Shown: in pieces, positions 11,833 to 56,239 of the stretch
How positions within the stretch are numbered: position 1 is the first letter of the stretch
Layout of the letters: every line of letters starts with the position of its first letter
Source of the DNA: Kribbella sp. CA-293567
GTDB lineage: Bacteria > Actinomycetota > Actinomycetes > Propionibacteriales > Kribbellaceae
Reading direction: 5' to 3'
Assembly: GCF_027627575.1 (NCBI RefSeq)
Contig: NZ_CP114065.1
Coordinates: 5,642,001-5,706,000, forward strand
Length of the DNA stretch: 64,000 nt
Made by a program: the position numbers and the translations under genes
The notes under the pieces: generated by a model
Database searches by the model: none
The model's input: only the letters and a program-made list of their open reading frames with translations
Told to the model about the DNA's origin: nothing

Positions 11833-13341
11833 ATGAAACGCACCGCAGTACTGTTGACCGTCGCGGTTGCCTCACTGGCGGCCGTGCTGGTTCCAGGCAT
11901 GACGTCGAGCGGCTCAGCCGCGACCCAGGCCCAGCCGCCGGGCGGTGTCAGGTGGGAAAAGTGCCCGGCAGAGATCGCTGCGGTACCGATTCCCGAAGCA
12001 ATGCAATGCGGCAAGCTGAAGGTTCCCCTGGATTACCGGGCTCCCGACGGCCGGACGATCGACATCGCGGTCTCCCGGCTGGCCAGCAAGAAGCCGGAGC
12101 AGCGGCGCGGCATCCTGCTGACCAACCCCGGCGGACCGTCCGCCGGCGAGGGCTACCCAGCCCTGCTTGTCGCGACCGGTCTTCCACAGAACGTCCTGGA
12201 CAGTTACGACGTAATCGGATTCGACCCGCGCGGCATCGGCCGCAGTACGCCGGTGACGTGTGACCTCACTCCGGAACAACAGTTGTCCGGCAACATCCCG
12301 CCGTACGCGCTGAACGCCGCGGACGTGAGCAAGCGGGCGGCCGAGAGCAAGCAGATGGCCAAGCAGTGCGCCACATCGAAGACGTCCTGGATGCTGCCGC
12401 ACGTCAGCACAGCCAATGCGGCCCGCGACATGGACCGGATCCGCGTCGCGCTGGGTGAGTCCAAGCTGTCGTACGCCGGCGCGTCATGGGGAACCCACCT
12501 GGGCGCGGTGTACACCACGCTGTTCCCGCACCGCAGCGACCGGATCGTGCTCGACAGCAACACCGGCCCGGGCGGCTGGGACTACCCGAGCAACCGGCTC
12601 TGGTCACAGGGTGTCGAGGACACCTTCCCGGCCTTCGCGAAGTTTGTCGCGGCCAACCACCGCGAGTACGGACTCGGCAGGACACCGGCACAGGTGCGAG
12701 CGAAGTACTTCGAGCTCGCCAGGCAGTTGGAGAAGAAGCCGATCCAGACGCCGGACGGTCCGTTCGACCACGCGTCGTTCCGGCTGCTCAACTTCGGTCT
12801 GCTCTACGGTCCGACCCAGCTGACCCTGCTGGCCGGCATCTGGCAGGCGGTCGACGCGAACCAGCCGCCGCCCTCGCTGCCCGGAGGCGGAGCCGCGACA
12901 GCTGCCGAAAACCTCATCTCCGGTCGCTACTACATGGTCTGCAACGACTCGCGGTGGCCGACCTCGGTCAAGACGTATCAGCGCAGCGTCGCCATCGACC
13001 GGATCCGGTACCCGCTCTTCGGTGCCGCCGGAGCCAACATCACCCCCTGCGCGTACTGGCCGGACCCGGCCGAACGACCGATCCGCATCACCGACCGCGG
13101 TCCGTCCAACGTCCTGATGGTGCAGAACCTCCGTGATCCCGCGACGCCGCTGGCCGGTGCGCAGGCGATGCGCAACGCGCTCGGCCGCCGGGTCACGATG
13201 GTGACCGCCGACCAGAGCGGCCATGGCGTCTACCCGGCCGGCAAGAACCGCTGCGCGAACCACGCGGTGACGAAGTTCCTCACCACCGGCGACCGGCCGG
13301 CGCGCGACTACCACTGCACGGCCGACGCAGCACCCCGCTGA
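11833..13341 (+). CDS. Secreted TAP-type alpha/beta hydrolase (tripeptidyl aminopeptidase family)
   Basis: 502 residues with a Sec signal peptide (MKRTAVLLTVAVASLAAVLV). The family core is WEKCP, QCGKLKVPLDY, LLTNPGGP, GFDPRGIGRSTPVTC, nucleophile Ser218 in GASWGTHLG, and the C-terminal TAP-like region with LMVQNLRDPATPL (Asp) and GHGVYPAG (His). Homologues in Streptomyces remove tripeptides from secreted proteins or act as related exopeptidases (MEROPS S33). It is the closest paralogue of the gene at 54737. Position behind the exporter suggests joint control by the two-component system. Confidence 0.88.
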   Translation: MKRTAVLLTVAVASLAAVLVPGMTSSGSAATQAQPPGGVRWEKCPAEIAAVPIPEAMQCGKLKVPLDYRAPDGRTIDIAVSRLASKKPEQRRGILLTNPGGPSAGEGYPALLVATGLPQNVLDSYDVIGFDPRGIGRSTPVTCDLTPEQQLSGNIPPYALNAADVSKRAAESKQMAKQCATSKTSWMLPHVSTANAARDMDRIRVALGESKLSYAGASWGTHLGAVYTTLFPHRSDRIVLDSNTGPGGWDYPSNRLWSQGVEDTFPAFAKFVAANHREYGLGRTPAQVRAKYFELARQLEKKPIQTPDGPFDHASFRLLNFGLLYGPTQLTLLAGIWQAVDANQPPPSLPGGGAATAAENLISGRYYMVCNDSRWPTSVKTYQRSVAIDRIRYPLFGAAGANITPCAYWPDPAERPIRITDRGPSNVLMVQNLRDPATPLAGAQAMRNALGRRVTMVTADQSGHGVYPAGKNRCANHAVTKFLTTGDRPARDYHCTADAAPR

Positions 13342-19325: not shown

Positions 19326-20900
19326 ATGAAGACAATGCAACGGTCAGTGGGAGCCGGTATCCCCCGCAGGTTCACCGGGTTGGCGATCTCGGTGGCGCTC
19401 ACTGTCGCCGCGGTGGTGGGCGGTAACGCCGCCGCGGCAGACCAGGCGATGATCGCGGCCGCACCGCCTGCAGTCGCCGCGCCGCGCATAGTCTGGGGCC
19501 CGTGCCCGATGTCGACTGAGGACCCCCGGCTCATCTGCGGAACGGTGAAGGTTCCGCTCGACTACCGGAACCCCGGTGGCGAGCAGATCGAGGTAGCTGT
19601 CTCGAAGTTGCCGGCAGCAAAGTCCAGCGCTCGCCGCGGTGTCCTGCTGCTGAACCCGGGCGGCCCGGCGTTGCCCGGCCTGGACGCACCGGTTGCCATG
19701 GCGCCGACCCTGCCGCCGTCGGTGTTGGCGGCCTACGACCTGATCGGCTTTGACCCGCGTGGAGTCGAGCACAGCACCCCGCAGAGCTGCGGCCTCGACG
19801 ACCCGTCACTCGCCGGCCTCTTCCCGTACCCGGCCGCGGACGGCTCGATCACCGCGAACGTCAAGCACGCCCGCACCACCGCGGAACGGTGTCTGACGAA
19901 CGCCGGCCAGAAGCTCCGTCACTTCACCACCGCCAACACGGCCCGCGACCTGGACCGCATCCGTACGGCGCTCGGCGAGAAGAAGATCTCCTTCTGGGGT
20001 CAGTCCTACGGCACCTATCTCGGCACCGTCTACGCGTCGCTGTTCCCGAAGCGCGCCGACCGGGTGGTCCTCGAGGGCAACGTCGACCCCACGAAGGTCT
20101 GGGCCAACGCGAAGGACAACTGGGGCAAGGCCATGTCGGAACGCTTCCCCGACGCGGCAAAGGTCGCCGCGGCGCAGCACGCCACGCTCGGACTGGGTGG
20201 CACCGTCGACGAGGTGACGCAGAAGTACCTCGTACTCGCCGATCGCCTCGACCGCGCCCCCGCGCCCGTCCCCGGCACCTCGCTCATCCTGACGGGTTCG
20301 ATACTGCGCACCGTCACTTACAGCCTCCTGCTGCAGAACGAGGCCCTCCCTGTGCTGGCGCAGTTCTGGAAGGCTGCGGTCGCGCTGGCCGACGGCACGC
20401 TCACCGAGGCGGACGGCCAAGTACTCCAGCAGGTATTCGCCGCACCGCCGCCGACCCCGGGCGTGCCGGCCGACAACCAGGCCACCATGTTCCTGGCGCT
20501 GACCTGTGGTGACGCGCCGTGGTCCAACGACGTCCACGAGTACGCCCGCCGCACCGCCGAGGACCGCCGGGCCTGGCCGCTTACCGCAGGGATGCCCGCC
20601 AACATCTGGCCGTGCGCGTTCTGGCCGAAGCCGATCGAAAAGCCCGTCCGCGTTACCGACCAGGGACCGCGCAACATACTGATCCTGCAGAACCGCAGAG
20701 ACAACGCCACCCCGTGGGAGGACGGTCTCGGGCTGTACGAAGTCCTCGGCAAGCGAGCGGCTTTCGTCGGCGCGGAAAACGGCGGGCACTACGTGTACGA
20801 CCAGGGCTCCTCATGCGTGGACAAAGCGACGGTAGCGTTCCTGACTACCGGCCGGCTGCCGGGCAAGAAGGTCTACTGCACCGACGTCGCACCGCAGTAA
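19326..20900 (+). CDS. Secreted TAP-type alpha/beta hydrolase
   Basis: 524 residues. A signal region of about 40 residues ends with AANAAA-type Ala-rich sequence. The core has WGPCP, ICGTVKVPLDY, LLLNPGGP, GFDPRGVEHSTPQSC, Ser227 in GQSYGTYLG, then the TAP-like C-terminal domain with ILILQNRRDNATPW and GGHYVYDQ. It is more divergent than the 11.8- and 54.7-kb paralogues. GGAGG lies 8 nt before ATG 19326. It stands alone, convergent with the acyltransferase gene. Confidence 0.87.
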   Translation: MKTMQRSVGAGIPRRFTGLAISVALTVAAVVGGNAAAADQAMIAAAPPAVAAPRIVWGPCPMSTEDPRLICGTVKVPLDYRNPGGEQIEVAVSKLPAAKSSARRGVLLLNPGGPALPGLDAPVAMAPTLPPSVLAAYDLIGFDPRGVEHSTPQSCGLDDPSLAGLFPYPAADGSITANVKHARTTAERCLTNAGQKLRHFTTANTARDLDRIRTALGEKKISFWGQSYGTYLGTVYASLFPKRADRVVLEGNVDPTKVWANAKDNWGKAMSERFPDAAKVAAAQHATLGLGGTVDEVTQKYLVLADRLDRAPAPVPGTSLILTGSILRTVTYSLLLQNEALPVLAQFWKAAVALADGTLTEADGQVLQQVFAAPPPTPGVPADNQATMFLALTCGDAPWSNDVHEYARRTAEDRRAWPLTAGMPANIWPCAFWPKPIEKPVRVTDQGPRNILILQNRRDNATPWEDGLGLYEVLGKRAAFVGAENGGHYVYDQGSSCVDKATVAFLTTGRLPGKKVYCTDVAPQ

Positions 20901-42221: not shown

Positions 42222-43715
42222 GTGATCCGAAAAACGTTGCCTGCGGCAATTGCTGCCGTAGCGGTGATAGCGACGGGCGGAGGAGTTTCGGCAGCCTCCG
42301 TTTCGGCGCAGTCCTCGCGGCCGGCCGTGCACTGGGGACCGTGCCCGGCCGGCACCACCGGCCCAGGCCTGCAGTGCGCGACGCTCGACGTCCCGCTCGA
42401 CTACCGCCGTCCGGAGGGACGGAAGATCTCCATCGCGTTCTCCCGCCTGGCGAGCGCCAAGCCGGAGCAGCGCCGCGGCGTTCTGCTGCTCAACCAGGGT
42501 GGCCCAGGTCTGGGCGGGCTGAACTTCGCCGACACCTTGGTGAAGGGCGGACTGCCGCAGCAGGTGCTGGACAGCTACGACCTGATCGGGTTCGACCCTC
42601 GCGGCATCGGCCACAGTACGCCGCTGACCTGCGACCTGACGCCCACACAGCAGGGGATCGCCTCGAACCCGCCCGCACCGTCCACCCTGGCCGACGTCAA
42701 GAAGTCCGCCGTGTTTGCGAAGACCGTCGCCGACCAGTGCGCGGCGTCGGCGACCGGCTCCCTGCTGCGGTACATGACGACGAAGAACACCGCGCGTGAC
42801 ATGGACCGGCTCCGCGAAGCACTCGGTCAACCCAAGATCTCGTACTACGGCGCGTCCTACGGCACCTACCTGGGCGCCGTCTACACGACGATGTTCCCGA
42901 GCCGCAGCGACCGCATCGTCCTCGACAGCAACCTGGGCCCGGACGGCTATGACAGCGACGCGCTGCGCATGCAGGCTTTGGGCGTCCAGCTCCGGTTCCC
43001 CGACTTCGCGAAGCTGGTGTCGTCCGACCCCGCGAAGTACGGCCTCGGCCGTACGCCGGCCGCGGTGACCGCGAAGTACTTCGAGCTCGTCAAGCGCCTC
43101 GAGAAGACACCCGTCCTGGGGTACGACGCCACGCTGTTCCGCGTCGTCACCGCAACGTTCCTCCGCTCGGACCCGCTGATGCTCGAGCTAGCCGAACTCT
43201 GGCGCGAGCTCGAGACCGCCCTCGACACCGGCAAGACCGCGCCGGCCGCAGCGGCGGCAGCCGGCCGTGCCGCGGCGCCGACCGGCGACAACTTCCAGGC
43301 CGGGCACTACGCGGTGGTGTGCGGCGACTCCCGCTGGCCGACCTCAGTGCACGCCTACCAGGCCAACGTGGCGATCGACCGCATCCGTTACCCGCTGTAC
43401 GGCGCCTTCGCGGCCAACATCCGGCCGTGCGCGTTCTGGCCGGACCCGATCGAGCCGCAGGTGAGGATCTCCGACCGGGGCCCGGCCAACGTGCTGATGA
43501 TCCAGAACCTCCGTGATCCGGCGACTCCGATGCCGCCGGCCCTGCAGCTGCGCAGGGCGTTCGGTGATCGCGCACGCCTGGTGACGATCGACCAGGGCGG
43601 CCACGGCGCCTACCTCTTCACCCCGAGCAAGTGCGGCAACAACGCGGTGACCGACTTCCTGGTCACCGGCCGCCGGCCGGTGCACGACAAGCACTGCCCG
43701 GCACCGCCGGCCTGA
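42222..43715 (+). CDS. Secreted TAP-type alpha/beta hydrolase
   Basis: 497 residues from GTG 42222, chosen because AAGGAG is 8 nt upstream and the signal peptide (IRKTLPAAIAAVAVIATGGG) begins here. Core motifs: WGPCP, QCATLDVPLDY, LLLNQGGP (Asn-Gln instead of Asn-Pro), GFDPRGIGHSTPLTC, Ser212 in GASYGTYLG, and LMIQNLRDPATPM plus GGHGAYLF in the TAP domain. Its promoter carries the same operator as the two-component system genes at 8-10 kb. Confidence 0.88.
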   Translation: MIRKTLPAAIAAVAVIATGGGVSAASVSAQSSRPAVHWGPCPAGTTGPGLQCATLDVPLDYRRPEGRKISIAFSRLASAKPEQRRGVLLLNQGGPGLGGLNFADTLVKGGLPQQVLDSYDLIGFDPRGIGHSTPLTCDLTPTQQGIASNPPAPSTLADVKKSAVFAKTVADQCAASATGSLLRYMTTKNTARDMDRLREALGQPKISYYGASYGTYLGAVYTTMFPSRSDRIVLDSNLGPDGYDSDALRMQALGVQLRFPDFAKLVSSDPAKYGLGRTPAAVTAKYFELVKRLEKTPVLGYDATLFRVVTATFLRSDPLMLELAELWRELETALDTGKTAPAAAAAAGRAAAPTGDNFQAGHYAVVCGDSRWPTSVHAYQANVAIDRIRYPLYGAFAANIRPCAFWPDPIEPQVRISDRGPANVLMIQNLRDPATPMPPALQLRRAFGDRARLVTIDQGGHGAYLFTPSKCGNNAVTDFLVTGRRPVHDKHCPAPPA

Positions 43716-48958: not shown

Positions 48959-51715
48959 ATGACCCGAGGAACCGCCGCGCGGGCGGCGGACCGTGACTTC
49001 GTCGGCCGGACCGAAGAACTCCGCCGGCTGACCGACCTCGCCCACAAGGTCCGCTCCGGGCAGCACCGGACCGCGGTGATCCGGGGTGCGCCGGGAATCG
49101 GCAAGTCGGCCCTGATCAGCCGGTTCCTGGCCGACCTCGAGGGCTTCACCGTGCTGTCGGCGATCGGCGACCTCTCCGAACGCCCGCTGGAGCTGGGCAT
49201 CGTCGACCAGTTGCTGTCCCGGGTACCGGCCGAGACAAGGTCCCGGACACCGGCCCTCGGCGCCGCCAGACTGCCGGGCGCCAACCCGCTCGCGATCGGA
49301 ACCCAGCTCCTGGAGCTCGTCGGCGAACTGACGCCGGTCGCCCTCGTCGTCGACGATCTCCAATGGGCGGACCACTCGTCCCTGCAGGCGCTGCGATTCC
49401 TGCTCCGGCGAATCTGGTCGGAGGAAGTGCTGGTCGTGCTTCTGGCCCGCTCCGGGGAGCAGCCCGACGACCCGGCCGTCGATCGTCTGCTCCATGCGAC
49501 TCCGGCGGAGCTTCAGCTCGAACTCGGCGGTCTGGACCTGGTCGACGTGGCCGATCTCGCCCGGCAGCTGTCCGGCCACCAGCTACCGACCGCGACGGTC
49601 CGGCGGTTCCACTCGTTCACCCGCGGTCATCCTCTGCTGCTACGCACGATCCTGCGCGAGGTCGGGTCCCAGCAATCGCCCGGGATCGACTGGGGCCGGA
49701 CGGTTCCGCCGTCGGTGGCGACCGGAGTACGGCGCCGGTTCGAGAACCTTCCGCCGCCGTCCCAGGCGCTGCTCGAGGCGCTGGCCGTCCTCGGCGGCAG
49801 ACCCTCGCTTGCGCAGGCCGCCGAGGTGGCTGCGGTCGAAACGGCGGCTGAAGCACTCGGGCCCGCGATCGAGGCCGGCCTGGCGATCTGGTTCCCCGAG
49901 GAACCGTCCTGCCCGGTCTCCATCACCCACGAACTGCAGCGCGAGGCGATCTACTCGGCGCTGAGCCCCGTCCGGCGCGGCTCGCTGCACCAGCGGGCCG
50001 CCACCACGGTCGAGCATCTGCAGGCCTGGCGGCACCGGGTGGCGGCGGTCAGTTCGACCGACGCGAAGCTGGCCCGGCAGCTGGAGCAGGCAGCCGGCGA
50101 AGAAGGGGCCCAAGGCAACCATGACGCCGCCGCGACGTTCCTGGGCTGGGCTGCCGAGCTCGCGCCCTGGGGTCCGTTGAGCGAGAAGCTGCTGCTGACC
50201 TCGATGATCCACATCATGTTCAGCCCCGGCCGGGGCCGCGCCAGGACGCTGTATGCCCGCGCGACCCGCTGCGCGCCGTCGGCGCTGCGCAGCCTGGCTC
50301 TCGGTCTGTGCGAGCTCTACGTCACCGGCGAGCGAAGCGCTGCCGAAGATCATCTCCGGGAAGCCTTCGAGGTCAGCACGGCGATCGCCTCGGAAGGCTG
50401 GGTGCGCGGTACGGCGGCCGCCGGGCTGACCGGTATCAGCGTCTGGCGCGGCGACGCCGACAGCGCCATGAGGTACGCCGACGTCGCGCTGACCACCCCC
50501 GGCGTACCGGTGCAGCAGCGTGACTACGTGGCTTGTCTGCGCGCTGTCGCCCGCAGCCGGCGCGACGGGCTTCCGGCCGGCCTCGACGAACTTCGTCATC
50601 TCTCCGATCATCCGTCCGACGTGTCGACCCACGATCTCGAGGCGCTGGCCTGCCGCGGTGCCATCCGGACACTGACCGGGCTGATCGAGGAGGCCGAAGG
50701 CGATCTCACCGAGGTGGTCCGACGTCAGGAAGCCGGTGTCCCGATGCTGTCCGGGGTCCAGCCGCACTGCTATCTGGCCGCGGCGCAGTACCAGTTGGGT
50801 GACTGGGACAGCAGCGCGCTGACGATGCGCCGGGCCTCACTGCTGGTGGACGAGGACCAGCCGGCGATGAACCAGGTGATCAGCCACCTGGCCGCTTCGC
50901 TGGTTCCGTCGGCCCGCGGCGACTGGAGCACGGCGGACGGCCTGGTCCGGTCTGCCCAGACCGCCGCCCGGCGGTTCGGCGGTCCGCAGGATCTCCGGTA
51001 CGCCGCCATCGCGGCCGGCCTGCTGTGCGAGGCCCGTGGCGACAGCCGCGGCGTCCTGCGTGCGCTGAGTGTCGTGCCCGGGCTGCGTTCCCGAGGTGGT
51101 CCGCCGAGCGGGCTGCACGAGTGGTGGAGCACCTTCTGGGGACCGTTGCTGATCCACTCCTTGCAGGACAGCGGAGAACTCGCGGAGGCGGCCGGTGAAC
51201 TGACAGCGCTGCGGGAGCGTGCTCAGGACAGCACGATGCTGGGCAGTACGATCGCCCGGCTGGCCGCACGCCAGGCCGATGCCGAGGGCAACAAACAGCT
51301 GGCGATCGACCTGGCGGAGGAGCAGCTCCGCACGCTGCTCGCACCGCGGCCACGGCTGGCCGACGGGTTGCTCTTCCACGAGCACGGCCGGCGGTTGCTC
51401 GGCATCGGCGACCGCATCGGCGCGGCGCGCTGGCTCACCGCCGCGGATCAGTGTCTCGGCGCCCTGTCGGCCCTGCCCTACCGCCGGCGGCTGGCCACCG
51501 ATCTGGCGATGCTGACCGCCGAACCCGTACCGCGGCGGCTGCCCGAGCTGACGGCACGCGAACGCGAGGTGACCGAACTGGTGCTGCGTGACCTCACCAA
51601 CCGGGAGATCGCGGCCGAGCTCTTCGTCAGCCCCAAGACCGTCGAGTACCACCTGCGCAACATCTTCGCCCGGCTCGGCATCGGCTCCCGGCGAGAGCTG
51701 CGCGGCCTATTCTGA
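48959..51715 (+). CDS. LuxR family regulator of the LAL type
   Basis: 918 residues. ATPase domain with Walker A GAPGIGKS (43-50) and Walker B VALVVDDLQWAD (127-138), a long helical TPR-like middle (residues 320-830), and a LuxR helix-turn-helix at the end (LTAREREVTELVLRDLTNRE to LFVSPKTVEYHLRNIFARLG). LAL regulators are large activators of pathway or stress genes. It is divergent from GH51 and upstream of the Trp-repeat gene pair, which is its most likely target by position. ATG 48959 has GAGG 7 nt upstream; the open frame starts earlier. Confidence 0.9.
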   Translation: MTRGTAARAADRDFVGRTEELRRLTDLAHKVRSGQHRTAVIRGAPGIGKSALISRFLADLEGFTVLSAIGDLSERPLELGIVDQLLSRVPAETRSRTPALGAARLPGANPLAIGTQLLELVGELTPVALVVDDLQWADHSSLQALRFLLRRIWSEEVLVVLLARSGEQPDDPAVDRLLHATPAELQLELGGLDLVDVADLARQLSGHQLPTATVRRFHSFTRGHPLLLRTILREVGSQQSPGIDWGRTVPPSVATGVRRRFENLPPPSQALLEALAVLGGRPSLAQAAEVAAVETAAEALGPAIEAGLAIWFPEEPSCPVSITHELQREAIYSALSPVRRGSLHQRAATTVEHLQAWRHRVAAVSSTDAKLARQLEQAAGEEGAQGNHDAAATFLGWAAELAPWGPLSEKLLLTSMIHIMFSPGRGRARTLYARATRCAPSALRSLALGLCELYVTGERSAAEDHLREAFEVSTAIASEGWVRGTAAAGLTGISVWRGDADSAMRYADVALTTPGVPVQQRDYVACLRAVARSRRDGLPAGLDELRHLSDHPSDVSTHDLEALACRGAIRTLTGLIEEAEGDLTEVVRRQEAGVPMLSGVQPHCYLAAAQYQLGDWDSSALTMRRASLLVDEDQPAMNQVISHLAASLVPSARGDWSTADGLVRSAQTAARRFGGPQDLRYAAIAAGLLCEARGDSRGVLRALSVVPGLRSRGGPPSGLHEWWSTFWGPLLIHSLQDSGELAEAAGELTALRERAQDSTMLGSTIARLAARQADAEGNKQLAIDLAEEQLRTLLAPRPRLADGLLFHEHGRRLLGIGDRIGAARWLTAADQCLGALSALPYRRRLATDLAMLTAEPVPRRLPELTAREREVTELVLRDLTNREIAAELFVSPKTVEYHLRNIFARLGIGSRRELRGLF

Positions 51716-51880
51716 CCGGCGGCTCCGTCCGGCCAGGACGACGGTCCGGGCCGGCCGCCTGATCGGGCAGCGGCGGGTGCACGATCGCTGGTCCGGCTTC
51801 TTCCCCGCCCGCGGTCCTGTACTGCAGATAGTGAGGCGTGCCGCCGCGGCGGCGTGGACCTCGATCGAAGGGAGCAGCCC

Positions 51881-53017
51881 GTGACCGAAGCGGAGGGATT
51901 TCGCTGGGTCGGCGAAGAGCAGGAAAGGTATCTCGCGGACAGCAGCTCGTCCGCCTGGCAGGGAAACTGGCCCGAGCACCTCGGCAGGTACCTGGACCAC
52001 TCCTGGCCCAACTGGCAGCAAGAGGACGACGAACGCCGTAGGGACTGGCTGGACGAACGCGTCCGGTCGATCGCTCTCGGCTGGATCGACAGCGAACAGC
52101 GGGGTCGTCTGGACACCCTGGCCGCCACCCACGGCGACTGGCGCGACTGGCTGCCGATCCAGCTCGACCAGTGGTGGCCGGACTGGTCGAGATCCACTCC
52201 CGGCGAGTTGGCCGCCTGGTTCGCCGGCGCCATGGACGGGCTGGTACCTCGACAAGTTGCCGCTCCCCCTGCGACCGCAACAGCAGCCAACCCGCTCGAC
52301 CTCGGCTGGCTGACCGCCGAGCAGCGAACCCAGCTCGACACCCTCACGCCCGTCCGAGGCGACTGGGGCAACTGGCTTCCCGCCCAGATGGACGAATGGT
52401 GGCCCGACTGGACCCACTCCGACCACGGCCAACTCACCACCTGGTTCGACTCCGCCCTCCCCAGCCTGCTGACCCCGCACCCCGCCGACCCGCGCGACCT
52501 CAGCTGGCTGACCCCCGAACAGCAGCACCACCTCGACACCCTCACCTCCACCAGAGGCAACTGGCAGGCCTGGCTTCCCGCCCAGATGGACGAATGGTGG
52601 CCCGGTTGGGCTCATTCCGGCCACGGCCAACTCATCACCTGGTTCGACTCCGCCCTCCCCAGTTTGCTGAGCCCCACGGCTCCGCGTGACGTCTCCTGGC
52701 TGAGCCCCGAACAGCGGTCCCAACTCGACGAGCTGACCGAGCTCCGCGGCGACTGGCACCACTGGCTGACCGAGGACCTCGATCGCCGGCGACCGGACTG
52801 GAGCGAACTTCCGCCCTCCGAGCTGGCCGGCTGGTTCGACGGAGTACTCCCGTTGCTGCTCCTGCCGGACGCCGAGCAGGGACTGACGGAGGCAATGACA
52901 ACGCTGACCGCCGACCTCGAGGCCGACGAGGTGCTGCAGGAGCTGATCGCGGACTTCACCGACGACGATCTCGCCGAGATCGTCGAAGCAGCACTGTCCT
53001 CGAGCCAACCCGCCTGA
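51881..53017 (+). CDS. Trp-rich tandem-repeat protein, family unknown
   Basis: 378 residues from GTG 51881 (GGGAG 6 nt upstream). It consists of about five repeats of 64-75 residues: a degenerate one at 9-67, then units starting at Trp68, Trp143, Trp209 and Trp273. The consensus is WLTxEQxxxLDTLTxxRGxW, then WLPAQMDEWWPDWxHS, then HGQLTTWFDSALPSLL. It has some 35 Trp, is acidic and has no Cys, signal peptide or membrane helix. The last 50 residues are acidic helix. I recognise no family. It is followed 24 bp later by the helical protein, so the two are an operon. Confidence 0.75.
   Translation: MTEAEGFRWVGEEQERYLADSSSSAWQGNWPEHLGRYLDHSWPNWQQEDDERRRDWLDERVRSIALGWIDSEQRGRLDTLAATHGDWRDWLPIQLDQWWPDWSRSTPGELAAWFAGAMDGLVPRQVAAPPATATAANPLDLGWLTAEQRTQLDTLTPVRGDWGNWLPAQMDEWWPDWTHSDHGQLTTWFDSALPSLLTPHPADPRDLSWLTPEQQHHLDTLTSTRGNWQAWLPAQMDEWWPGWAHSGHGQLITWFDSALPSLLSPTAPRDVSWLSPEQRSQLDELTELRGDWHHWLTEDLDRRRPDWSELPPSELAGWFDGVLPLLLLPDAEQGLTEAMTTLTADLEADEVLQELIADFTDDDLAEIVEAALSSSQPA
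52309..52677 (+). repeat. Near-identical 198-bp tandem coding repeat
   Basis: Repeat units two and three of the Trp-rich protein are nearly identical at the DNA level: TGGCTTCCCGCCCAGATGGA recurs exactly 198 bp apart (52373 and 52571), and GACTCCGCCCTCCCCAG follows in both. High DNA identity points to a recent in-frame duplication or gene conversion; the outer units have drifted. Confidence 0.85.
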
Positions 53018-53041
53018 CCCGGCCGAAGGAGACAGATCCCG

Positions 53042-54607
53042 ATGACCCAGACCGACACCGACACCGGCGCCGAGGGCAAGAAGGCCTCGAAGGAAGAACG
53101 CAAGGGCCAGGCGGTGGCCCGGCTCAAGAAGCACGAAGGCGGCTTCCTCTCCAGCCTCGCCGACCTCGATCTGCGCTACGACAAGACACTCCGCCGAGCC
53201 TTCACGCACCTGGCCGTCCAGAGCATCCAGAGCGCCAAAGCCGGCGCGGACCTCAAGCAACTCGAGGTGGCGGCCGGCGGCAAGGCCGCGGCACTGCTGC
53301 GGCAGGGAGATCCGGAACTGAGCTTCCGGTCGATGCGGCAAGCGATCGACGCCCAGCTGGTCGAGGGCCGGATCGAGGTACGGCAGGTCGACGAACTTGT
53401 CGCCATGATCAGGGACTGCCGGACGCTCGAAGTGATGCGCTACACGGAGACCGGCAAGAAGGCGCTCTACGAGGCGGAGATGCAGGCGGGCCGGATCCTC
53501 CAGCAGTTCGAGACCGAGAGCCAGGCGCTGGCCGTGGTCGCGGACCTGATCATCACCTACTCCGACGGCAAGGATCCCGACGCGCTTCCCGACCAGCGGG
53601 TCGCCACGAAGTACCTGGTGGCCAAGGAGCAGACCACCTACCGGCAGCAACGCCGCCAGGTCGAGCTGGAGCAGATCGGCGACCTGTGCTCCAAGGCCTT
53701 CCACTTCGAGATCTACAAGGCGCTGGCGAAGTTGTCCCCGGACAAGGAACACCAGAAGCTCGAGAGCGACCTCGAGACGATGAACAGGATCTACAGCAAC
53801 GCCGAAGCGGTGGCTTCGGCCGCCGGTGAGGGCGCCGGCTACGCCAGCGGAACCGCCGGTGTCGCGGCCGACATCTCCCTGGGGATCGCCCGCACCGGTG
53901 TCGACTTCCTGACCAACGCCGCGATCACGGCCTCCTATCACCGGCAGGCCAAGGCGCGCGTCAAGGAGATGCAGCAGGACAAGGAGAAGGTCTACGCCGA
54001 GGTGTGCGGTCAGCTCGACGGCAACCGGACCGCGGTGGCCGCGATGCTGGCGACGAAGTACGTCCAGCAGGTCAAGGAGATCCTGAACTACTCCGAGGTG
54101 CCGATCCGCGCGAGCATCCTGGCCACCGGTATCGGGCTCGACCAGGTCGGCGCGGGAGCGGCGACGAAGGTCCTCAGCAAGGCCTGGGACCTGCTGAAAC
54201 GCAGTGTCGTCGAGGTGGCCGACACGTTCCAGCAGGAGCGGCTGGCGCGGGCCGAGGAGGAACTCGGCACGGTCAGTGGCGATCAGCGGATCAGCACCAT
54301 GGACGGTATCTGGCAGGAATGGGCGGGCGGCGTACAGGACCGGATCTTCGAGCAGTTCAAGGACAACAGCGCCGGAGTCCTCCTCAACGTGCCGGACTCG
54401 GCCCTGAACGCGCTGTACGACACGACGATCCATCTGATCGCCACGGAGCTGATGGGCAGGCTGTCGATCAGGCCGGCCCAGACTTTCGACGCCGGCCTGT
54501 TCTTCAAGCACACCAACCAGATGACCGGCGTTCGCCGCCGGGCCGAGACCGCCGAAGCGGCCGCGAAGGAGGCCGGCGGCAACCAAGGGGCTCGAGCCGG
54601 TGAGTGA
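53042..54607 (+). CDS. Long helical protein, function unknown, partner of Trp-repeat protein
   Basis: 521 residues, nearly all predicted helix, Lys/Glu-rich at the N-terminus (KKASKEERKGQAVARLKKHE). A Gly/Ala-rich, moderately hydrophobic section at about residues 255-300 (ASAAGEGAGYASGTAGVAAD, then SLGIARTGVDFLTNAAITAS) sits in the middle and could be a membrane-inserting hairpin or packing core. Otherwise soluble; no signal peptide. GAAGGAG is 9 nt upstream of ATG. I recognise no family. The helical rod plus central hydrophobic hairpin recalls some alpha-pore-forming proteins, but only in outline. Confidence 0.7.
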   Translation: MTQTDTDTGAEGKKASKEERKGQAVARLKKHEGGFLSSLADLDLRYDKTLRRAFTHLAVQSIQSAKAGADLKQLEVAAGGKAAALLRQGDPELSFRSMRQAIDAQLVEGRIEVRQVDELVAMIRDCRTLEVMRYTETGKKALYEAEMQAGRILQQFETESQALAVVADLIITYSDGKDPDALPDQRVATKYLVAKEQTTYRQQRRQVELEQIGDLCSKAFHFEIYKALAKLSPDKEHQKLESDLETMNRIYSNAEAVASAAGEGAGYASGTAGVAADISLGIARTGVDFLTNAAITASYHRQAKARVKEMQQDKEKVYAEVCGQLDGNRTAVAAMLATKYVQQVKEILNYSEVPIRASILATGIGLDQVGAGAATKVLSKAWDLLKRSVVEVADTFQQERLARAEEELGTVSGDQRISTMDGIWQEWAGGVQDRIFEQFKDNSAGVLLNVPDSALNALYDTTIHLIATELMGRLSIRPAQTFDAGLFFKHTNQMTGVRRRAETAEAAAKEAGGNQGARAGE

Positions 54608-54736: not shown

Positions 54737-56239
54737 ATGAAGCGTCTAACAGTTCCTTTGACCGTCGTCGCCGTGTCGATAGGTACCGCTCTGGTGCCTG
54801 GGGTGTCGCAGGCCGGTTCAGCGGCCGCGCCTGCGCCGGCATCGAGCGGGATCAAGTGGGAGAAGTGTCCGGCCGGCATCTCCACGGTGCCGATGCCGGC
54901 CGAGATGCAGTGCGGCACGCTGAAGGTGCCGCTGGACTACCGGGCCCCCGAGGGCCGGACGATCGAGATCGCGGTGTCGCGGCTGGCGAGCAAGAAGCCG
55001 GAGCAGCGGCGGGGAGTGCTGCTGACGAACCCCGGTGGCCCGGCTCCCGGCCAGAGCTACCCGGCCATGCTCGTCACGCTGGGGCTGCCGCAGAGTGTCC
55101 GCGACAGTTACGACGTGATCGGGATGGATCCCCGGGGCATGGGCCGCAGTACGCCGGTGACGTGTGACCTCACGACGGCGCAACAAGCTTCGGGCAACAT
55201 TCCGCCGTACGCGCTCAACGCCGCCGACGTGACCAAGCGAGCCGGCGAGGCGCGGCAGATCGCCCAGCAGTGCGCGACCTCGAAGACCGCCTGGATGCTT
55301 CCGCACGTGAGCCCGGCGAACACCGCCCGGGACATGGACCGGATCCGGATCGCGCTGGGAGAGGAGAAGATCTCGTTCGCGGGCGCCTCCTGGGGCACCC
55401 ACCTCGGCGCTGTCTACACCACCTTGTTCCCGCAGCGCAGCGACCGGATCGTGCTCGACAGCAACCTCGGCGCGGGCGGCTGGGACTACGCCAGCGACCG
55501 GCTCTGGTCGCGGGGTGTGGAGGACCGGTTCCCCGACTTCGCGAAGTACGTCGCGGCCAACCACCGGGAGTACGGCCTGGGCCGCACTGCGTCCCAGGTG
55601 CGGGCGAAGTACTTCGAACTCGCCGGCCGGCTGGACCGCAAGCCGGTTCAGACACCCGAGGGACCGTTCGACGGCGCTGCCTTCCGGCTGATCAACTTCG
55701 GCTTTCTCTACGGTTCGGCCCAGCTGCCGATCCTGGCCGACCTCTGGCGCTCGCTGGACGCGAACCAGTCGCCGAAGCCGCTGCCTGGTTCGGTGGACAA
55801 CATCGAGAACCTGATCTCGGCCCGCTATTACATGATCTGCAACGACGCGGCCTGGCCGAAGTCGGTCAAGAGCTACCAGCGCAACGTCGCGGTGGACCGG
55901 ATCCGGTACCCGCTGTTCGGCGCGGCGGGCGCCAACATCACGCCCTGCGCGTTCTGGCCGGAGCCGACCGAGCCCGCGGTCCGCATCACCGACCGTGGTC
56001 CGGCGAACGTGCTGATGGTGCAGAACCTGCGCGACCCGGCCACCCCGCTGGCCGGCGCCCTGAACATGCGGAAGGCACTCGGTGCGCGGGCCACGATGGT
56101 CACCGCCGACCAGGGCGGTCACGGCGTCTACCCGATGAGCAAGAACCAGTGCGCGAAGCACGCGGTGACGACGTTCCTGCTGACCGGTGAACGGCCGGCG
56201 CACGACTACCACTGCTCGGCGGACGCCGAACCGCGGTGA
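54737..56239 (+). CDS. Secreted TAP-type alpha/beta hydrolase
   Basis: 500 residues with signal peptide MKRLTVPLTVVAVSIGTALV. It is the closest paralogue of the 11833 gene, with long stretches identical (SRLASKKPEQRRG, NIPPYALNAADV, LPHVS). Core: WEKCP, QCGTLKVPLDY, LLTNPGGP, GMDPRGMGRSTPVTC, Ser218 in GASWGTHLG, LMVQNLRDPATPL and GGHGVYPM. It lacks the 15-bp operator of the two-component system genes and has another inverted repeat upstream, so control differs. Confidence 0.88.
   Translation: MKRLTVPLTVVAVSIGTALVPGVSQAGSAAAPAPASSGIKWEKCPAGISTVPMPAEMQCGTLKVPLDYRAPEGRTIEIAVSRLASKKPEQRRGVLLTNPGGPAPGQSYPAMLVTLGLPQSVRDSYDVIGMDPRGMGRSTPVTCDLTTAQQASGNIPPYALNAADVTKRAGEARQIAQQCATSKTAWMLPHVSPANTARDMDRIRIALGEEKISFAGASWGTHLGAVYTTLFPQRSDRIVLDSNLGAGGWDYASDRLWSRGVEDRFPDFAKYVAANHREYGLGRTASQVRAKYFELAGRLDRKPVQTPEGPFDGAAFRLINFGFLYGSAQLPILADLWRSLDANQSPKPLPGSVDNIENLISARYYMICNDAAWPKSVKSYQRNVAVDRIRYPLFGAAGANITPCAFWPEPTEPAVRITDRGPANVLMVQNLRDPATPLAGALNMRKALGARATMVTADQGGHGVYPMSKNQCAKHAVTTFLLTGERPAHDYHCSADAEPR

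Follow-up and report, generated by a model that had tools for sequence, protein, structure and literature searches.

In type VI secretion, the adaptors and chaperones Eag, Tap and PRK are partner proteins for many unrelated neighbouring effectors. Beside the clusters of extracellular contractile injection systems (eCIS), eCIS-associated toxins (EATs) have been described as variable genes whose neighbourhood often includes a protein or domain of the DUF4157 type (PMC8213781, PMC11297309), and 88% of the EATs in the set of one study lay within ten genes of an eCIS (PMC11297309). In the phage tail-like particle of Streptomyces lividans, Sle2 binds the helical cargo Sle1 as well as a component of the particle, and Sle1/2-like pairs are described beside the sheath (PMC13277306). 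The presence of a LuxR-type regulator (GerE) beside eCIS was reported for 25.8% of loci (PMC8213781). Most eCIS cargo is unknown since effectors bear few recognisable marks, and the usual guides, proximity to the cluster and DUF4157, both fail for the gene pair described here. The pair, genes A and B, lies in a window of 64,000 nucleotides from Kribbella sp. CA-293567 (NZ_CP114065.1, positions 5,642,001 to 5,706,000 of the forward strand; the genome of 7.6 Mb is a single contig), after the gene of a large ATP-binding regulator of the LuxR family (LAL).

The features of this module are as follows.

48959-51715, plus strand: LAL-type regulator, first gene of the module, 918 residues, AAA_16 and GerE domains
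51757-51768, no strand assigned: putative operator GCCTGATCGGGC (palindrome GCCYGATCRGGC), an exact match, 112 bp 5' of the start codon of A
51881-53017, plus strand: gene A, acidic Trp-repeat protein and putative loading adaptor, GTG start, 378 residues, isoelectric point (pI) 4.26
53042-54607, plus strand: gene B, long helical protein and putative eCIS cargo, ATG start, 521 residues

The pair is very probably linked to an eCIS, and it is likely that A is an adaptor and B the cargo of this actinobacterial machine, the two forming an orphan module that is co-regulated in trans. Like Sle1 and Sle2, the two genes are adjacent, their relatives lie near an actinobacterial sheath, and the putative cargo is long, helical and without a known domain; A would, like Sle2, bind both the cargo and a particle component, and the functional end of the cargo, which differs among species in Sle1/Sle2, may be a further likeness. 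Unlike Sle2, which is a DUF4157 protein, A gave no DUF4157 match and carries Trp-rich repeats instead. The pair in the window is also far from its eCIS, and the likeness is one of description. In contrast to most EATs, the window pair is not within ten genes of an eCIS, and neither protein has a DUF4157 or toxin domain; in contrast to Eag, Tap and PRK, A reaches no Pfam cut-off and would serve a different machine. The regulator differs from the reported GerE/LuxR neighbours of eCIS in being LAL-type and in travelling with the cargo pair too. No account of Trp-repeat eCIS adaptors, or of eCIS cargo far from the cluster, was found in a literature search whose coverage left out most subscription journals and all of bioRxiv. 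The novelty lies in an unnamed adaptor family, an unnamed cargo family, and a module remote from the machine yet bearing its motif; the kind itself is ordinary. If the assignment is true, Trp-repeat adaptors and GCCYGATCRGGC would give two new handles for eCIS cargo anywhere in actinobacterial genomes, and the choice of cargo by the machine could be tested with two small genes.

Association of the pair with an injection system

Both frames were confirmed at the places and with the lengths initially given for them, and both are intact, with 24 bp between them. Separate searches with A and with B across 38 genomes of the Kribbella family gave matches in the same three (G000, G003 and G014, the last being Kribbella monticola); the pair was also present in Labedaea, and the expectation that the two genes are kept together in relatives was borne out. 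Gene A was located directly 5' of B in all four genomes with both genes, at a gap of 13-26 bp. The three full-length relatives of A were 48-57% identical to it with the same gene order, and the full-length relatives of B were 28-41% identical to B. A and B are conserved genes, and the pair is real. In wider searches, the profile of A matched 3 of 391 genomes of the order and, in the family of Labedaea, 4 of 390 (Labedaea, G775, G433 and, weakly at E 1.5e-4, G435), while the profile of B matched 2 of 394 genomes of the class (that of the window and G1009). A scan of genome contigs with A returned two loci, in K. monticola and Labedaea rhizosphaerae. A mobile-element origin found no support: plasmid records gave no match to A or B, phage records, searched with B and not with A, gave none to B, and no viral contig was confirmed as encoding a relative of either. 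The B relative of G1009 (L050:9219-11237) has 672 residues, with a long C-terminal stretch beyond the B-like part that belongs to no Pfam family.

The link to the eCIS rests on DNA outside the window. In G003 and K. monticola, LAL-A-B adjoins an eCIS whose genes precede the LAL gene; Pfam identified sheath, gp25, baseplate J, PAAR and Pvc16 in that of G003. The genome of the window has an eCIS of its own (the home eCIS), with a sheath (C1:1396106-1397629) 82% identical to that of G003, and with two tube proteins (one just under the cut-off), hub, gp25, baseplate J, tail protein I, PAAR and Pvc16 found by Pfam. As judged by eye, it lies beside biotin genes, as do those of G003 and K. monticola. 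The pair is not beside this eCIS: LAL-A-B stands alone, in an orphan position 4.3 Mb along the contig from it, or, should the chromosome be circular, 3.3 Mb in the opposite direction. In Labedaea, A-B is on a different contig from the sheath genes. Of the four genomes with the pair, two thus have it next to the machine and two have it elsewhere. The slot after LAL in the home eCIS (L030:14342-15831, C1 about 1.390-1.392 Mb) is occupied by the genes of a 144-residue TPR-like protein that stays below the Pfam cut-offs, of a 252-residue TNT protein (PF14021, E 4.1e-19), and of an 86-residue protein without a family. This last gene, beside the TNT-domain gene, could be an immunity gene.

The pair occurs with one subtype of the sheath. 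With a sheath query from G003 and matches at E<=0.001, a sheath was found in 18 of the 38 Kribbella genomes, at 80-100% identity in three, at about 60% in seven and more weakly in eight. The three at 80-100% were exactly the A-B genomes, and the seven at about 60% were without A-B. Among 390 genomes of the Labedaea family, counted as rows, the sheath was matched at E<=1e-150 in 128 and at E<=1e-200 in 39, and all four A-bearing genomes of the family fell among the 39. All seven A-bearing genomes carried the subtype, and G1009, which has the B relative, carries a sheath at 62% identity.

A DNA motif common to the pair and the eCIS was found as well. In a comparison of 11 promoter regions from three genomes, CGCCTGATCGGG was present before A and in six of the ten others at up to two mismatches, a weak result alone, as 1 of 30 shuffled sets equalled it. 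Exact GCCYGATCRGGC occurred in seven rows, representing six distinct sites, in 598,649 partly overlapping bases of the loci and the window, and each of the six either preceded A or lay at the promoter of an eCIS gene or of a gene neighbouring an eCIS: position 51757 of the window, before A in G003, the sheath/Pvc16 promoters of G003, the home eCIS and G397, and L031:18185. This last site (L031:18185-18196) separates two divergent genes, for proteins of 832 and 450 residues, at the distal end of the home eCIS. One or both of these have homologues next to other eCIS, so the two genes may belong to the regulon. K. monticola has GCCYGATCRGGC with one mismatch both before A and in the sheath promoter. 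As background, 800 kb of the same chromosome (about 10.5%) were taken as 40 even stretches, with 169,506 bases outside called genes. The exact motif was found once, inside a gene, and not at all in the 169,506 non-genic bases; with one mismatch it was found 46 times, seven of these outside genes, so that only exact matches are telling by themselves. In the window, the five matches with up to one mismatch were within the range of shuffles (mean 2.2; 6 of 100 reached five), and 51757 was the sole exact one. For sheath/Pvc16 promoters outside the discovery set, four of seven (G397, G494, G610 and G576) matched with no more than one mismatch, G397 exactly, and each match was equalled by 1-3 of 500 shuffles. 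These similarities suggest that GCCYGATCRGGC may be an operator shared by the pair and the eCIS.

That the pair has nothing to do with the eCIS in the genome of the window, being a relic or serving another role under its own LAL, would agree with its orphan position there and in Labedaea and with the lack of a domain proving delivery. This is distinctly unlikely, given that both frames are intact, that the sheath subtype is present in every A-bearing genome, and that the exact eCIS motif precedes A.

LAL-A-B would be an eCIS cargo module, split here from its machine and tied to it by the common putative operator. In relatives, modules of this type are found in a slot next to the eCIS genes for LAL, PAAR and sheath. 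A signal acting through LAL, or through another regulator, on the operator would lead to joint expression of the eCIS and the distant pair. The acidic repeat adaptor A would bind B, with the Trp-rich helical repeats as the likely binding face, and would dock on the particle, perhaps via its C-terminal motif, bringing B along; the long helical cargo would be freed upon contraction of the particle. We infer all three steps, the binding of B by A, the docking of A and the delivery of B, whereas the genes, their conservation, the co-occurrence, the slot, the changing second gene and the common DNA motif were established by computation. In Streptomyces coelicolor, CIS are located in the cytoplasm and, under stress, trigger death of the cell (PMC12237407); the target may therefore be hyphae of the producer itself and not a rival.

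Exchangeable partners in the putative adaptor slot

Relatives of A were found next to differing genes in G775, G433 and G435 and, as second copies, in K. monticola and Labedaea; these genes showed no BLAST similarity to B or among themselves at E 0.01. The second copies in K. monticola and Labedaea were 43-48% identical over the repeats and had unrelated partners; in K. monticola, the partner gene precedes the copy. Conversely, the relatives of B in G1009, G494 and G525 come after acidic proteins with another aromatic repeat, and in G1009 a gene for 94 residues lies directly before the B relative. Their E values to the four-sequence profile of B were 1.5e-18 (G1009), 1.5e-8 (G494) and 4e-5 (G525), the last a weak match because the set comprised only 16 proteins. 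A conserved protein with exchangeable neighbours looks like a loading adaptor and not an immunity protein, and the earlier suggestion that the Trp/acidic repeats bind a partner fits the relatives of A.

This pattern bears on the possibility that A is the immunity protein against a toxin, B, in an effector-immunity or toxin-antitoxin pair that is merely associated with the eCIS. The adjacency of the genes, their patchy distribution (3 of 38) and their place by a delivery machine would suit such a pair, and the TNT-domain gene of the home eCIS likewise has a small gene alongside. An immunity protein should follow its toxin, whereas relatives of A accompany unrelated genes; A also comes first in all four genomes with both genes, and B has no toxin domain. 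We consider this explanation unlikely.

The slot side was examined for 12 further eCIS of the subtype, out of the 39 genomes. Five of the 12 had a tandem-repeat protein followed by a variable protein (G494, G525, G543, G530 and G773), the two being separated by a small gene in G773. The repeat units in G543 are built around 'AYAGWWRRLDGSTWKFARSNRRDDTWVDQ' (L062:11580-12614), in the adaptor position by the sheath and before a long protein, and those in G530 around 'TESGGFLKDSAGRVFLADKTTEVFLHTGYPGQ' (L063:12368-13324), in the same position and before another long protein.

The slot also bears on whether, instead of being cargo, A and B are accessory components of the particle itself, for example variants of the tape measure, fibre or scaffold that belong to one eCIS subtype. 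Co-occurrence with a single sheath subtype would be expected of such parts, and long helices such as those of B are also a feature of tape-measure proteins (PMC13277306). The slot content of the home eCIS is different (TPR-like and TNT proteins) with the core constant, no pair was seen in the examined stretch of other eCIS of the subtype, and the copy in the window is remote from the cluster, which makes particle parts quite unlikely. The structural role proposed in the initial annotation was not upheld if taken as one needed by the machine, as the home eCIS at 1.39 Mb has its core genes without the pair alongside.

The C-terminal region of A was compared with those of other adaptor-position proteins by a motif model built from four A proteins and tested on 11 other adaptor proteins and 409 controls. 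Each of the 11 was outscored by 0-75 of the 409 control proteins. Against composition-keeping shuffles, the combined P was 2.5e-6 for the 11 adaptors, 0.004 for the six of other repeat types and 0.017 for five of these; for partner proteins, P was 0.07, and the partner in G773 scored level with the adaptors. A C-terminal docking motif FTDDDLAEIVEAAL common to the adaptors is suggested by these values, and suggested only. More broadly, actinobacterial eCIS might use a class of acidic tandem-repeat adaptors, a tentative view, in which the repeats are swapped with the cargo, the C-terminal docking motif is common, modules can reside at other chromosomal sites than the machine and are called in trans via the operator, and one machine serves several cargoes (the TNT protein in cis, B in trans).

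Several results weigh against A as adaptor and B as eCIS cargo. Neither protein matched the DUF4157/eCIS core domain (PF13699) up to E 10, with a model that does find this domain in the K. monticola eCIS, and B has no recognised toxin domain. With the subtype cut at 1e-200, the association with the sheath gave Fisher P of 1.2e-4 (Kribbella) and 8.7e-5 (Labedaea family), and this cut was chosen after the rows were seen; at 1e-150, the cut fixed beforehand for the search of the Labedaea family, it was weaker (P 0.014 and 0.011). The motif was missing from the sheath/Pvc16 promoters of G613, G433 and G1009 (three of seven), and also upstream of both A relatives in Labedaea, of those in G433 and G435, and at the B locus of G1009, where the best matches had 2-4 mismatches; its absence before the relatives outside Kribbella restricts the motif link to the Kribbella pairs. 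In seven of the 12 further eCIS, no tandem-repeat and variable pair was present in the stretch examined, one of which ends at a contig end. The acidity of the adaptor-position proteins (15 of 15 with pI <=4.65; 4.84-9.01 in 16 partners) speaks for the adaptor assignment, in a comparison that covered these partners alone.

Repeats, predicted structures and family searches

The repeats of A were real and comprised five units, starting at residues 7, 66, 141, 207 and 271; the size of 64-75 residues first assigned to them did not hold, the core being about 59 residues with spacings of 59, 75, 66 and 64 between the starts. The protein contains 32 Trp residues, fewer than the 35 or so of the initial annotation, and 67 Asp and Glu against 23 Lys and Arg. 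The parts of gene A are as follows.

51899-52075, plus strand: repeat R0, degenerate
52076-52252, plus strand: repeat R1
52301-52477, plus strand: repeat R2
52499-52675, plus strand: repeat R3, with 147 of 177 DNA positions the same as in R2
52691-52867, plus strand: repeat R4
52868-53014, plus strand: C-terminal region with the possible docking motif (suggestive only)

Pairwise identity among R1-R4 was 46-75%, with Z of 17-28 against shuffles, and the degenerate R0 was 23-28% identical to the others (Z 4-9). The DNA identity of R2 and R3 was far above that of the other unit pairs, which points to a recent duplication or gene conversion inside A.

In the AlphaFold2 model of A, short-helix repeats with about three helices per unit formed a string, with a mean predicted local distance difference test score (pLDDT) of 76 and a predicted template modelling score (pTM) of 0.36, so that the packing between repeats was not fixed. 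The prediction that B is helical agreed with its AlphaFold2 model, which consisted entirely of long helices and was of moderate confidence overall (mean pLDDT 64, pTM 0.47); about residues 70-220 were modelled with confidence, and the C-terminal residues 475-521 were below pLDDT 50. The best conserved stretch of B, GLDxVGAGAAT, lies amid weakly hydrophobic helices, the best 19-residue hydropathy of the four B proteins being 1.1-1.5, and an effect on membranes is the first guess from this, a doubtful one.

No family was recognised for either protein, as initially supposed. Pfam and NCBIfam gave no match to A or B above the curated cut-offs, and PHROGs none below E 1. PADLOC, a set of anti-phage defence models, gave no family for A or B up to E 10, so the defence role once considered found no backing here, with no defence search made of the neighbours. 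An LTXXQ match to A (0.0012, below the gathering score), the best stretch of which was 13 residues, was dropped as a short-motif match. The best hits of a sequence-profile search of the PDB, at E 0.079 for B and 0.14 for A, were unrelated proteins. In the fold search of the PDB, A reached a best Foldseek E of 1.3 and a VIA Z of 3.4 (root-mean-square deviation (rmsd) 5.9 over 93 residues), and B a best Foldseek E of 0.056 and a VIA Z of 10.5 (rmsd 3.4 over 166 residues) with a long-helix cilia protein, a likeness that may mean nothing beyond a common helix arrangement. The absence of profile and PDB matches for A and B is not evidence of a new fold.

The LAL regulator and neighbouring genes

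The gene ending at 51715, 165 bp before the start of A, contains AAA_16 at residues 14-160 (1.3e-21) and GerE at 864-914 (4.8e-16). These domains make it LAL-type, in keeping with the annotation of the pair as directly following a LAL-type activator, and LAL belongs to the picture. LAL relatives at E<=1e-100 were found only in the three A-B genomes among the 38, with at most 23 candidates scored per genome. The window LAL shared 67% identity with the LAL preceding A in K. monticola, 62% with that in G003 and 60% with the LAL of the home eCIS. In the tree, the four close LALs were not separated, and distances alone tie the window LAL to those adjacent to A. The palindrome GCCYGATCRGGC was not found within three mismatches before the LAL gene of the window, and a scan for promoters and terminators found none.

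An empty site of the window locus was not readable, the arabinofuranosidase being present in 31 of the 38 genomes and the six neighbourhoods examined having other neighbours. No hint of a defence island was seen among the genes of the window, which were inspected visually, with no family search. Four look-alike genes of the alpha/beta-hydrolase type were noticed by eye at 12001-13341, 19326-20900, 42327-43715 and 54737-56239 from their 'LLLNPGGPG' and 'GxSWGT/GxSYGT' stretches, the last of the four lying directly 3' of B.

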